Shown: positions 44,174-49,176 of the stretch, piece by piece
Layout of the letters: the number at the start of each line of letters is the position of its first letter
Numbering within the stretch: position 1 is the stretch's first letter
DNA from: Clostridia bacterium
Lineage (GTDB): Bacteria; Bacillota; Clostridia; Oscillospirales; Acutalibacteraceae
Direction: 5' to 3'
Assembly: GCA_017403185.1 (NCBI GenBank)
Contig: JAFQON010000038.1
Coordinates: 1-64,000, forward strand
Length of the DNA: 64,000 nt
Translations under genes and position numbers: made by a program
The notes under the pieces: generated by a model
The model's database searches: none
Seen by the model: the letters and a program-made list of their open reading frames with translations, nothing else
Told to the model about the DNA's origin: nothing

Positions 44174-44211
44174 GTACTGAATATGTTAATAATTGATTTT
44201 TGGAGGCATAT

Positions 44212-45117
44212 ATGAAGCACTTACTTAAGCTTATGGATTTGAGCACAAACGAAATCAATGAGATTCTCAATCTCGCAGATCAGCTCAAATACGAAAAAAG
44301 AAACGGAATTGAGCATCACCACCTCAAAGGCAAAACTCTCGGCATGATTTTTGCAAAATCATCCACAAGAACAAGAGTTTCATTTGAAGTAGGTATGTAT
44401 GACCTCGGCGGTATGGCACTTTTCCTCAGTTCGCATGACATTCAGCTCGGCAGAGGTGAGCCTGTTAATGATACTGCAAGAGTTCTTTCGGGCTACCTTG
44501 ACGGTATTATGATAAGAACCTTCGATCAAAGCGATGTTGAAACCCTCGCTGAGTACGGTTCAATCCCCATAATCAACGGTCTTACAGATTATTGCCACCC
44601 CTGCCAGGTGCTTGCAGACCTCATGACAATCCGTGAATTCAAGGGCGGCATAAAAGGCAACAAGCTTTGCTACATCGGTGACGGCAACAACATGGCTAAC
44701 TCACTCATCGTCGGCGGCATCAAGATGGGAATGGCAGTCAGCATCGGTTGCCCGGAAGGCTACAAGCCCGATGCGGAGATTATAAAATGGGCAAGCAAAA
44801 ACGGCGACTTTACCTGCACAACAGATGTTCTTGAAGCTGCGAAGGATGCTGATGTGCTTTACACTGATGTTTGGGCATCAATGGGTCAGGAAGCTGAAGC
44901 CGAAGAAAGAAAGAAAATATTCAATGGCTACCAGATCAATGACGAGGTTATGGCAGTTGCAAAGAGTGATGCAATGGTTCTTCACTGCCTGCCCGCTCAC
45001 CGTGAAGAGGAAATCACAAACAAAGTTTTTGAAGCCCACGCAAAGGAAATTTTTGAAGAAGCCGAAAACAGACTTCACGCTCAGAAAGCTGTTCTCGTTA
45101 AGCTTATGAAAGACTAA
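44212..45117 (+). CDS. argF: ornithine carbamoyltransferase
   Basis: 301 residues. SSTRTRVSFEVGMYDLGG binds carbamoyl phosphate, and HCLPAHR is the ornithine-loop signature. It makes citrulline from ornithine and carbamoyl phosphate in arginine synthesis (the catabolic role, ArcB, is possible but no arc genes are near). The next gene encodes the enzyme that makes carbamoyl phosphate, 21 bases downstream, so supply and use are co-expressed. ATG at 44212 follows GGAGG by 5 bases. Confidence 0.94.
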   Translation: MKHLLKLMDLSTNEINEILNLADQLKYEKRNGIEHHHLKGKTLGMIFAKSSTRTRVSFEVGMYDLGGMALFLSSHDIQLGRGEPVNDTARVLSGYLDGIMIRTFDQSDVETLAEYGSIPIINGLTDYCHPCQVLADLMTIREFKGGIKGNKLCYIGDGNNMANSLIVGGIKMGMAVSIGCPEGYKPDAEIIKWASKNGDFTCTTDVLEAAKDADVLYTDVWASMGQEAEAEERKKIFNGYQINDEVMAVAKSDAMVLHCLPAHREEEITNKVFEAHAKEIFEEAENRLHAQKAVLVKLMKD

Positions 45118-45138
45118 TCACACAGGGGGTTTTTAAAT

Positions 45139-48100
45139 ATGCCAATCAATAAAAATATCAAAAAGGTAATGGTTATCGGTTCGGGCCCCATCGTAATCGG
45201 TCAGGCTGCCGAATTTGACTACGCCGGCACACAGGCCTGCCGTGTGCTCAAAGACGCAGGTCTTGATGTTGTTCTTGTTAACTCAAACCCTGCAACCATT
45301 ATGACTGACAAGGCTCTTGCTGATGAAATTTATCTTGAACCTCTCACTGCAGAAACCGTTAAAAGAATTATTGAAAAAGAAAAGCCCGACAGCCTTCTTG
45401 CCGGCCTCGGCGGTCAGACAGGTCTGACTATCGCAATGCAGCTGAGCAAGGACGGTTATCTTGACAGAATGGGCGTTAAGCTTCTCGGAACAAACGCAGA
45501 AGCTATTGATAAGGCTGAGGACAGAAAGATGTTCCGTGACACAATGGAATCAATCAATCAGCCCGTCATTCCCTCAGAAATTGCAAATGATGTTGAAACC
45601 GCTCTCGAAATTGCGGAGAAAATCGGTTATCCCATCATCATCCGTCCTGCATTCACCCTCGGCGGTGGCGGCGGCGGCGTTGCAAACAATGCAGACGAGC
45701 TTAAGGTTATTGCAAAAACAGGTCTTGACTTATCCCCCATCACTCAGGTGCTTGTTGAAAAGTATATTTTCGGCTGGAAAGAGATTGAATTCGAAACAAT
45801 GCGTGACAGTGCAGGCAACTGCGTAGCGGTCTGCAGCATGGAAAACTTCGACCCCGTAGGTATCCACACGGGCGACAGCATTGTTGCCGCTCCCGCTCTT
45901 TCACTCAAGCCCGAAGAGCTTGAAATGCTTCGCAAGGCATCGCTTGATATTGTTGAGGCTCTCGGCATTATCGGCGGCTGTAACTGCCAGTTTGCTCTTG
46001 ACCCGAACAGCATGGATTATGCCGTTATCGAGGTTAACCCCAGAGTTTCACGCTCATCGGCACTTGCAAGTAAAGCAACCGGCTACCCCATTGCAAAGGT
46101 TACTGCAATGCTCGCTCTCGGTCTTACTCTTGATGAAATAAAAAACGACGAAACAGGTCTCAACTGCGCAAAGTTTGAGCCCGATGTTAAATATATCGTT
46201 GTCAAGCTTCCGAAATGGCCTTTTGATAAGTTTGTTAACGCAAGCAGAAAGCTCGGCACACAGATGAAGGCAACAGGCGAAGTTATGTCAATCGGCCCTA
46301 CATTTGAAATGGCTATTATGAAAGCCGTAAGAGGTGCTGAGATTTCGCTTGACACTCTCAATGCCGCACCAAAATCGGATAAGCCTCTCAAAGAACGCCT
46401 TGCAGAAACAGACGATATGCGCTTGTTTGCTGTGTTTGAGGCAATCAAGAGCGGTATGTCAATTGAAGAAATTCATGATATAACAAAGATTACCGAATGG
46501 TTCCTTCTCAAGCTCAAGAATCTCGCAGATTTTGAAAAGTCAATTGAAAACGGCAATCTTGACGAAGAAAAATATATTCAGGGTAAACATTACGGCTATA
46601 CAGACGCAGCTCTCAAGCGCCTTTCAGGAGTGGACAAGCTCCCCGAGCACAAAGAGGCAGTCTATAAAATCGTTGATACCTGCTCAAGAAACTTCAACAC
46701 TGCAGCTCCTTACTTTTACTCAACATACGACATTGAATGCGAAGCAAGACCTCTTGCCGCAAAGAGCGATAAAGAAAAAATTATCGTTCTCGGCTCAGGC
46801 CCCATCAGAATCGGTCAGGGTATTGAATTTGACTATTCCTCAGTTCACTGCGTATGGACTCTTAAGGAACTCGGCTACGAAGTTGCAATTATCAACAACA
46901 ACCCTGAAACCGTTTCAACAGACTATGATACTGCAGACAGACTTTACTTTGAACCCCTTACTCCCGAAGATGTTATGAACATCATCAAAGTTGAAAATCC
47001 CATCGGCGTTGTTGTTGCCTTTGGCGGTCAGACAGCTATCAAGCTCACAAAGTATCTTGATGAAAACGGTATCAGAATTCTCGGCACATCGGCTGACGGC
47101 ATTGACACCGCCGAGGACAGAGAACGCTTTGACGCACTTCTCGAAAAGTTTGCAATCCGCAGACCCAAGGGTATGGGCGTTATGACAAAGCAGGAAGCTC
47201 TCAACGCCGCAAACACCCTCGGCTACCCCGTGCTTCTCCGTCCCTCATATGTTATCGGCGGTCAGAACATGACTATTGCTCATGAGGACAGCGATGTTGA
47301 AAGATACATGGATATCATCCTCTCGGGTGAAATCGAAAATCCCGTTCTTGTTGATAAATACATGATGGGTACAGAGCTTGAGGTTGATGTTATCTCTGAC
47401 GGCAAGGATGTTCTTATCCCGGGTATTATGGAGCATGTTGAGCGTGCAGGCGTACACAGCGGCGACTCAATAGCTGTTTATCCGCCCTACAACCTCAGCG
47501 ACAAGATGCGCGAAAACATCATTGATGTATCCGAAAAGCTCGCTCTTTCGCTCGGCACAAAGGGTCTTGTTAACATTCAGTATCTTATCTATCACAACCA
47601 GCTTTATGTTATTGAGGTTAACCCCAGAGCTTCAAGAACAATTCCTTATATCAGCAAGGTAACGGGCGTACCCATGGTTGACATTGCTTCAAAAGTAATG
47701 ATCGGTCAGTCGCTCAAAGACCTCGGCTACGGCACGGGACTTTATAAAACTCCCCCCTACTTCACTGTTAAGGTTCCCGTATTCTCATTCGAAAAACTTT
47801 CAGATGTTAACTCAATCCTCGGCCCTGAAATGAAGTCAACCGGTGAAGTTCTCGGTATTGGCAAAACCACTGCTGAAGCACTCTATAAAGGTCTTACCTC
47901 GGCAGGTTTCAAAATTCAGCTTCCCACGGCAGAGAAAAACATCGGCATTCTTCTCAGCGTTGACAGTCATGACCTTCTTGATGCCGTATCTCTTGCAAAG
48001 AAGCTTGATGACCTCAAGATAAATATTTACGCTACCAAAGAAACCGCAGATGCAATTTCACAGCTCGGTATTGATGTTGAATGTGTTCAGAGCAGAAATG

Positions 48101-49176
48101 ATGACTCGGAAATCTACAAGCTTCTTGAAAGCGGCAAGATTGACTATGTTGTTTATACAGGTGCTCTTCACGATTCAACAATGGGCGATTACATCGCTCT
48201 CCACAGAAGAGCAATCCAGCTTTCAATCGCCTGCATCACATCTCTTGACACCGCAAATGCTCTTGCAGATATTATTGCAAGCCGCTTCAATCAGCAGAAC
48301 ACAGAGCTTGTTGATATCAACAATATGCGTTCAGAAAGACAGACACTTAAGTTTGTGAAGATGGATGCTTCAGGCAATGACCACATCGTTATTGAAAACT
48401 TTGATAATTCAATCACCTGCCCCGAAAGCCTCTGCGTAAGCCTTTGCGACAGAAATCACGGCGTTGGCAGCGACGGCGTAATTCTTGTTGAAAAATCAGA
48501 TATCGCAGATGTCAAGATGAGAGTGTTCAACCTTGACGGCAGCGAAGGCAGAATGGGCGGCAACGCAATGCGCTCGGTTGCAAAATACGCTTATGACAAG
48601 GGCTATGTTACAAGCGAAACAATGACTATCGAAACAGCAAGCGGCGTTAAGAGCGTTGAGCTTTACACAATGGACGGTAAGGTAAGCTCGGTTTGTGCAA
48701 ATATGGGCAAGGCAGACCTCGAAAATGCCGTTACAAGCACCATAGGTACAAACAAGTTTATCAATTATCCCGTAACCATCGCTGGTGAAGAACATAACAT
48801 CACCTGTGTATCAATGGGCAATCCTCACTGTGTTGTTTTTGTACCCAGACTTGATACAATCGAAATAGAAAAGATTGGTCCCAAATTTGAAAAGGCTGAT
48901 ATTTTCGCTCATAGAGTCAACACCGAATTTGTAAGAGTTGTTAATGAAACCACACTCAAGATGCGAGTTTGGGAAAGAGGCAACGGAGAAACTCTTGCCT
49001 GCGGCACCGGCGCTTGTGCAGCGGTTGTTGCAGCGGTTGAAAACGGATTCTGCAAAAAGAATACCGATATCACCGTTAAGGTAAGAGGCGGCGACCTTAT
49101 TGTAAACTACGGCGATGACGGTGTGCTGCTCACGGGTGCAATTAAGCGTGTGTTTGAAGGCACGGTTGAATATTAA
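45139..49176 (+). CDS. carB: carbamoyl-phosphate synthase large subunit fused to a diaminopimelate epimerase-like domain
   Basis: 1345 residues in one frame. CarB part: two ATP-grasp halves (VMVIGSGPIVIGQAAEFDY at the N terminus and its repeat VLGSGPIRIGQGIEFDYSS near 550) and an MGS allosteric domain at about 934-1050. CarB alone is about 1070 residues. From about 1069 the chain becomes DapF: LKFVKMDASGNDHIVI, GVGSDGVIL, FNLDGSEGRMGGN, SMGNPHCVVF, ERGNGETLACGTGACAA. Substrate contacts and the second Cys (C1288) are kept, but the first catalytic Cys (MCGN) is Gly1140. No carA nearby: argF lies upstream. AGGGGG supports the start; an internal ATG at 48325 lacks a ribosome site. Ends at a strong terminator. 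Confidence 0.93.
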   Translation: MPINKNIKKVMVIGSGPIVIGQAAEFDYAGTQACRVLKDAGLDVVLVNSNPATIMTDKALADEIYLEPLTAETVKRIIEKEKPDSLLAGLGGQTGLTIAMQLSKDGYLDRMGVKLLGTNAEAIDKAEDRKMFRDTMESINQPVIPSEIANDVETALEIAEKIGYPIIIRPAFTLGGGGGGVANNADELKVIAKTGLDLSPITQVLVEKYIFGWKEIEFETMRDSAGNCVAVCSMENFDPVGIHTGDSIVAAPALSLKPEELEMLRKASLDIVEALGIIGGCNCQFALDPNSMDYAVIEVNPRVSRSSALASKATGYPIAKVTAMLALGLTLDEIKNDETGLNCAKFEPDVKYIVVKLPKWPFDKFVNASRKLGTQMKATGEVMSIGPTFEMAIMKAVRGAEISLDTLNAAPKSDKPLKERLAETDDMRLFAVFEAIKSGMSIEEIHDITKITEWFLLKLKNLADFEKSIENGNLDEEKYIQGKHYGYTDAALKRLSGVDKLPEHKEAVYKIVDTCSRNFNTAAPYFYSTYDIECEARPLAAKSDKEKIIVLGSGPIRIGQGIEFDYSSVHCVWTLKELGYEVAIINNNPETVSTDYDTADRLYFEPLTPEDVMNIIKVENPIGVVVAFGGQTAIKLTKYLDENGIRILGTSADGIDTAEDRERFDALLEKFAIRRPKGMGVMTKQEALNAANTLGYPVLLRPSYVIGGQNMTIAHEDSDVERYMDIILSGEIENPVLVDKYMMGTELEVDVISDGKDVLIPGIMEHVERAGVHSGDSIAVYPPYNLSDKMRENIIDVSEKLALSLGTKGLVNIQYLIYHNQLYVIEVNPRASRTIPYISKVTGVPMVDIASKVMIGQSLKDLGYGTGLYKTPPYFTVKVPVFSFEKLSDVNSILGPEMKSTGEVLGIGKTTAEALYKGLTSAGFKIQLPTAEKNIGILLSVDSHDLLDAVSLAKKLDDLKINIYATKETADAISQLGIDVECVQSRNDDSEIYKLLESGKIDYVVYTGALHDSTMGDYIALHRRAIQLSIACITSLDTANALADIIASRFNQQNTELVDINNMRSERQTLKFVKMDASGNDHIVIENFDNSITCPESLCVSLCDRNHGVGSDGVILVEKSDIADVKMRVFNLDGSEGRMGGNAMRSVAKYAYDKGYVTSETMTIETASGVKSVELYTMDGKVSSVCANMGKADLENAVTSTIGTNKFINYPVTIAGEEHNITCVSMGNPHCVVFVPRLDTIEIEKIGPKFEKADIFAHRVNTEFVRVVNETTLKMRVWERGNGETLACGTGACAAVVAAVENGFCKKNTDITVKVRGGDLIVNYGDDGVLLTGAIKRVFEGTVEY

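Follow-up and report, generated by a model that had tools for sequence, protein, structure and literature searches.

What is a diaminopimelate (DAP) epimerase fold doing at the end of a carbamoyl-phosphate synthase (CPS)? The question is posed by one gene in a 64,000-nucleotide stretch of DNA from a Clostridia bacterium of the Acutalibacteraceae (GenBank assembly GCA_017403185.1, contig JAFQON010000038.1, positions 1 to 64,000), called the window below. On its forward strand, positions 45139..49176 hold a single ATG-initiated, stop-free frame of 1345 amino acids, in which the large subunit of the synthase, CarB, is followed by a DapF domain. Of the two cysteines that DapF uses in catalysis, this domain has lost the first, yet it keeps the residues that contact DAP. 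We give an even chance to the reading that, in the clade of the window, it is a pseudo-epimerase, dead but still ligand-competent, that regulates the synthase to which it is attached.

A single frame joins CarB and DapF

The first half of the protein matches PRK05294 over residues 1-1049 (1403.7 bits; cut-off 599) and TIGR01369 over residues 4-1044 (1359.4 bits; cut-off 1027); the second matches TIGR00652 over residues 1071-1343 (259.9 bits; cut-off 114.65) and, in two stretches, PF01678. According to the Pfam and NCBIfam profiles and an alignment with E. coli CarB, the CarB half (residues 1-1034, 45139..48240) comprises two ATP-grasp synthetase units and the allosteric MGS domain, which lies at its C-terminus (residues 949-1034, 47983-48240). 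The DapF-fold domain spans residues 1072-1345 (48352..49173) and is preceded by a linker of 10 residues, Asn1062-Lys1071 (48322..48351). In the predicted structure, the local confidence score (predicted local distance difference test, pLDDT) is low directly before the linker and on into it. The linker has the same length of 10 residues in 161 of the 162 fused proteins in which it could be measured, out of 164.

No sequence resembling a ribosome site was seen by eye in the DNA ahead of the in-frame ATG at 48325 (Met1063). At the aligned position, the 164 distinct fused domains have Met 135 times, Leu 27 times, and Arg and Lys once each; since the methionine is replaced in some relatives, there is no conservation of a separate ATG start. 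The initial annotation of this DNA had described one uninterrupted frame with CarB ahead of DapF, a short linker and no start with a ribosome site at the junction, and in all this it holds good. Its further idea, that the DapF part might sense or answer to a cell-wall precursor or an amino acid, is in keeping with the present findings as a hypothesis. It overlooked the lost cysteine, the spread of the fusion with its very likely bifunctional relatives, the presence of Ddh without DapL and the failure to find CarA.

The search for the same fusion elsewhere, which that annotation had proposed, was run on samples of 45 genomes from the genus and 250 from the family, drawn evenly. PF01678 matches occur in 37 of the 45 genus genomes, and the fusion, counted from open frames and extracted sequences, in 24, of which G023 has a copy interrupted by an in-frame TGA. 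Family counts were made by hand and are lower bounds: in at least 82 of the 250 genomes the match starts in a CarB end within a frame of more than 600 residues, a fused frame of 1398 residues in genome G075 raises this to at least 83, and a frame of 351 residues in G286 would raise it to at least 84 if counted. A further set of loci, from named genomes, consists of the best 80 of 589 confirmed candidates, selected by likeness to a profile of domains that lack the first cysteine (Cys-less domains hereafter). CarB and DapF share one frame in all of these best 80, whose carriers are drafts of gut Clostridia, including Oscillospiraceae, Candidatus Avoscillospira, Borkfalkia and Pullichristensenella, some under odd record names, together with an isolate, Evtepia gabavorous KLE1738 (L130). 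In the CarB tree, fused CarBs, that of G075 excepted, group in one clade into which no unfused CarB falls; the genus is the only place where unfused CarBs were drawn without bias.

Automatic annotation may already name CarB-DapF fusions. A literature search, whose coverage leaves out most subscription papers, returned nothing on such a fusion or on a Cys-less DapF. Both halves are known families; the novelty lies in a DapF-fold domain at the C-terminus of CarB that is missing one of the features by which DapF is defined.

The first catalytic cysteine is lost and the pocket is kept

DapF catalysis uses two cysteines, Cys83 and Cys221 in CgDapF, Cys73 and Cys217 in HiDapF. In the window protein, the alignment places Gly1140 (codon GGC, 48556..48558) at the first of these positions, and the second is kept as Cys1288 (codon TGC, 49000..49002). 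Ten residues that map to the DAP contacts of CgDapF, as given in the available text of PMC5296763, are kept as well: N1080, N1131, G1141, N1142, N1228, N1261, E1279, R1280, G1289 and T1290 (48376..49008). Set against DapF in general (TIGR00652), the domain has the same fold, length, second cysteine and DAP-contact residues; it differs by the glycine, by its fusion to CarB and by a genome with no DapL above cut-off.

For the comparison with relatives, identical domains were collapsed, from 186 to 164 for fused and from 35 to 28 for stand-alone DapF. The first position is Cys in 33 of the 164 distinct fused domains, Ala in 101, Gly in 25, Ser in 3 and Tyr in 2, and the second is Cys in 161 and Ser in 3; none of the 164 has the first cysteine without the second. 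In stand-alone DapF both cysteines are found in all 25 rows that cover both positions, the other three of the 28 rows being fragments, two of them from the broken fusion of G023 (L050).

All 24 aligned fused rows of the genus are Cys-less, as are 79 of the best 80 named loci, with a single intact one (L143). Because the named loci were chosen for their likeness to the Cys-less form, the family sample gives a fairer ratio: 32 genomes have intact cysteines and 36 are Cys-less among the 68 tallied, which were drawn from 70 of the 84 fused family loci in a listing ranked against the Cys-less profile. Genome G250, whose domain is identical to that of L114 (Ala), and the window genome (G000) fall outside this tally after collapsing. 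For 36 of these 68 genomes, roughly one in two, an annotation as DAP epimerase predicts an activity that is probably missing.

The CgDapF variants C83A and C221A lose their activity almost wholly, and a disulfide switch is known between the two cysteines (both from the available text of PMC5296763); loss of the first cysteine would abolish the switch too. Judged by its residues, the window domain very probably has no epimerase activity. The pocket, meanwhile, is close to invariant in the 131 Cys-less domains: in CgDapF numbering, N74, G84 and N85 are kept in 129 each, N159 in 128, N194 in 131, E212 and R213 in 129 each, G222 in 131 and T223 in 128. The looser contact N15 is Asn in 98, Asp in 30 and another residue in 3. 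The ratio of nonsynonymous to synonymous substitution rates (dN/dS) of Cys-less DapF domains, computable for 13 of 15 pairs, ranges from 0.006 to 0.21 and is below 0.1 in 11; compared with the value for the CarB half, it is similar or exceeds it by a factor of up to about 2.6. The Cys-less domain is under purifying selection.

Intact fusions and the DAP pathway

The enzyme Ddh makes meso-DAP without an epimerase. We searched for Ddh and for a separate DapF in 69 genomes (32 with an intact fusion, 37 Cys-less), and for DapL in 48 of them, namely all those without a separate DapF save G004, which was searched apart, and 8 others. Ddh and separate DapF are both missing in 13 of 32 intact versus 3 of 37 Cys-less genomes (Fisher p 0.0017), with a Ddh piece at a contig end in Cys-less G181 counted as Ddh; among genomes without a separate DapF, DapL occurs in 20 of 22 intact versus 3 of 19 Cys-less (p ~1e-6). 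Both tests treat related genomes as independent. The eight Cys-less genomes with a separate DapF and without Ddh all have DapL, in one case split over two pieces. DapL is likewise present in all 13 intact genomes with neither Ddh nor separate DapF; in these genomes no other DapF was found to serve the DapL route, which makes the fusion very likely a true bifunctional enzyme.

The window genome, an 80% complete draft in which the window lies on contig C33, has the fusion as its sole DapF match. It has Ddh (E 3.6e-134), and for DapL nothing passed the cut-off (best E 3e-8; acyl-DAP routes were not searched), so the usual job of an epimerase appears to be absent there.

Neighbourhoods and repeated change

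Intact-cysteine CarB::DapF proteins of related Clostridia share the fusion point and the 10-residue linker (G075 apart) with the window form, and differ from it both by their cysteines and by their neighbours. The neighbours were counted upstream in loci with at least 2.5 kb on that side (31 intact, 75 Cys-less) and downstream in loci with at least 1.5 kb (30 intact, 88 Cys-less). The carA gene is found upstream in 30/31 intact and 66/75 Cys-less loci. For argF, called at 36% identity or more to one of two queries, the counts are 0/31 and 51/75, and in many relatives carA lies between argF and the fusion. Downstream, pyrG follows in 19/30 intact and 1/88 Cys-less loci and dapL in 5/30 and 0/88; most intact loci reach only 1.5-2.5 kb on this side, and a more distant dapL is missed, as in G193 (fusion, pyrG, dapL). 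The CTP synthase, ornithine carbamoyltransferase (OTC), CarA, PurF and DapL queries score above NCBIfam cut-offs, the second argF query (L178) being left out.

Intact fusions thus lie mostly among pyrimidine and DAP genes, and Cys-less ones largely among arginine genes; Cys-less locus L157 reads argJ-argB-argD-argF-carB::dapF. In the window, argF (forward strand, 44200..45117; TIGR00658, 426.5 bits, cut-off 280.85) ends 21 bp before the fused gene, and the gap, 45118-45138, holds no carA. Some of the smaller, separate losses depart from this pattern: Cys-less L233 (G138) stands before a pyrG-like gene, and Cys-less L225, L220, L229, L239 and L238 follow carA without argF. At L217, L230, L233 and L235, a CarA-like gene of about 470-500 residues is PurF.

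The state of the first cysteine has changed repeatedly. The DapF-domain tree (121 rows) contains a large clade of 79 rows (support 100), almost all Cys-less, together with separate Cys-less rows, and counts 9 changes. One of these is false: the single odd row of the 79, L050 (G023), is the end of the broken fusion, mislabelled as stand-alone. Trees of CarB, used alone because the trait is not contained in it, give 7 changes (thinned tree) and 8 (69 genomes); the identity threshold for thinning was 80% or 86%. Such counts cannot separate loss from gain; as stand-alone DapF has the first cysteine, we infer that the changes were losses rather than gains.

The synthase of the window genome

Like other members of TIGR01369, the window CarB is full-length, with both ATP-grasp halves and the MGS domain, and it keeps the residues equivalent to Ser948, Thr977 and Thr1042 of E. 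coli CarB (positions in the alignment were counted by hand). It differs from them by the C-terminal DapF domain, by a genome in which no CarA was found and by a Ser, counted in the same way, at the position of E. coli Lys993, a residue that binds UMP according to the available text of PMC6245113.

This fusion is the one CarB of the window genome, two further matches being weak and partial. Besides ArgF, a second OTC-fold match lies elsewhere in the genome and is presumably PyrB. CarA was found neither with TIGR01368 (E<=1e-80) nor with PF00988 (E<=0.01), searches that both matched in 14 of 14 control genomes. These genome-wide searches covered the genus, and they were equally negative in 10 sister genomes that carry this fusion (G003, G004, G013, G017, G020, G021, G023, G025, G030 and G031); three of the ten, G004, G013 and G017, have a completeness of 93-97%. 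In G011, G012 and G019, which carry the same form of the fusion, CarA is present, beside a second, unfused carB. Since no glutaminase subunit was found, the sole CPS of the window genome probably works on free ammonia and supplies arginine as well as pyrimidine synthesis.

Mitochondrial CPS1, which binds N-acetylglutamate, still has a glutaminase-like part, though an inactive one; in the window genome, by contrast, CarA was not found at all. What the window enzyme would share with such ammonia-type synthases (mitochondrial CPS1; PDB 5dou, 6uel) is the absence of a working glutaminase feed. In two other genomes of the genus, G002 and G033 (96-98% complete), CarB is unfused and we likewise found no CarA.

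A possible sensor on CarB and its rivals

We propose that neighbouring carB and dapF genes fused in an ancestor, yielding a bifunctional CPS and DAP epimerase, and that in the window lineage the DapF domain no longer epimerises DAP. It would instead bind a diamino acid without turnover, most likely meso-DAP and less likely an amino acid of the arginine pathway, and act by way of the neighbouring MGS domain to set how active the synthase is or how it oligomerises. In the window clade, the synthase would take free ammonia.

A regulatory module is suggested by the DAP contacts, which a structural tail would not need, by the loss of the first and never of only the second cysteine, and by the position of the DapF domain after the allosteric one. 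Meso-DAP is the simplest guess for a ligand because its contacts are kept, and ornithine or arginine the second because of the arginine gene context. As in regulatory pseudoenzymes, a catalytic residue is lost, the binding-site residues are kept and selection is purifying. There is a precedent for a dead DapF that can regulate another enzyme: the E. coli DapF variant C73A/C217A still binds and stimulates RppH (available text of PMC4227774). In both cases a DapF-fold protein would act on another enzyme without epimerase activity; the E. coli DapF, however, is a separate protein with an unrelated partner, whereas the window domain is covalently attached and its cysteine was lost naturally.

On a broader and more tentative scenario, which we rate somewhat short of even, an enzyme became a built-in sensor about eight times through loss of the same cysteine: the tail would read meso-DAP or an arginine-family amino acid and gate the supply of carbamoyl phosphate, and the window clade would also have dropped the glutaminase and taken to ammonia. 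If true, the cell-wall and lysine pool of gut Clostridia would be coupled directly, by allostery, to the synthesis of arginine and pyrimidines. Natural DapF variants with Cys changed to Ala, Gly or Ser that keep their DAP contacts on a branch-point enzyme offer test cases for the passage from enzyme to sensor, with their intact sisters as controls.

Several points weigh against a regulatory pseudo-epimerase. A retained pocket does not name its ligand. The link between cysteine and pathway, strong by count, is not significant on independent pairs (7 pairs, of which on average 2.6 agree with the expectation, 0.0 contradict it and 4.3 show no difference; median p 0.25), and the loss could simply follow redundancy. 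Nor is a spare route enough to bring about the loss, given that 9 of the 32 intact fusions stand beside Ddh without a separate DapF and 10 more beside a separate DapF. Single absences, finally, are weak evidence in an 80% complete draft. Two further points, from genomes G176 and G264 and from the genus g47, fit particular rivals better and are taken up with them.

The rival that survives best, though we judge it unlikely, is a structural tail: the epimerase job is gone, and the domain is kept only for folding or assembly of the fused CarB and senses nothing. DapF is a dimer (available text of PMC5296763) and could hold CarB oligomers together. The main fused clade contains no unfused CarB, at least with the sampling of unfused CarBs confined to the genus, and the tail may thus be hard to lose. 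Moreover, genomes G264 and G176 (L241, L242) have Tyr in place of the first cysteine, Ser in place of the second and several changes in the pocket residues that others keep, and retain the domain nonetheless, which would suit a structural role better than a sensor. Yet a tail of this kind does not predict near-invariant DAP contacts in 128-131 of the 131 Cys-less domains (N15 apart), nor does it predict that only the first cysteine is lost.

It is improbable, in our estimate, that the domain has become a new enzyme, with the second cysteine as sole base for another reaction on a DAP-like amino acid, such as an elimination or dehydration. That cysteine is indeed kept in 161 of the 164 domains, and the structural neighbours of the fold include 3-hydroxyproline dehydratases and PhzF, some of which act with a changed second residue. 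The replacements at the first position, however, are mostly Ala or Gly, unable to serve as acid or base, the pocket residues remain of the DAP-binding type, and neither the six query proteins nor 11 loci inspected by eye revealed a conserved neighbour that hints at a new pathway.

Less probable again is a domain that still epimerises DAP, another residue or water standing in for the first cysteine. Its score lies far above the DapF cut-off, and the Cys-less genus g47 (G090, G208 and G285; L173, L174 and L172) has DapL with no Ddh or other DapF found: something must make meso-DAP there, either the Cys-less domain or an unseen enzyme. This too counts against a dead domain. A look by eye at the g47 fused domains identified no substitute catalytic residue; g47 could use a racemase of the pyridoxal phosphate (PLP) type, such as the DapF2 proposed in the available text of PMC9026213. 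CgDapF C83A, for its part, is almost inactive (available text of PMC5296763), and the window genome, with Ddh and without DapL above cut-off, needs no epimerase on that route. That misassembly or a frame error joined two genes has next to no probability: the source is a draft assembly, 80% complete, but the same junction, frame and linker recur in many independent assemblies, including that of the isolate E. gabavorous KLE1738, which excludes an assembly error.

Other arrangements of the two genes

The fused protein of G075 (L246, G075:C14) stands apart. Its linker has 30 residues, both cysteines are present, its CarB falls outside the main fused clade and its DapF groups with stand-alone ones; it is probably a second, independent fusion.

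Four loci (L058, L059, L061 and L069, from G019, G011, G012 and G035) show the unfused order carA-carB-dapF-dapL, which possibly pictures the arrangement that preceded the fusion. Elsewhere (L094:3401-7936 and L095:3413-7936), the N-terminal CPSase domain of CarA (PF00988) precedes CarB::DapF while the glutaminase part is absent; with this three-part protein, a CPS may have come to lack glutaminase in a different way. Downstream of the fusion there is a stand-alone dapF frame at L231 (G178), L235 (G265) and L245 (G168), at about 90-130 bp in two of these genomes and about 2 kb in the third.

Full-length fusions with 58-60% identity also occur in two records named Bacteriophage sp. from human faeces, MT837649.1, which is marked UNVERIFIED, and MT838905.1; these are probably bacterial fragments filed as phage.

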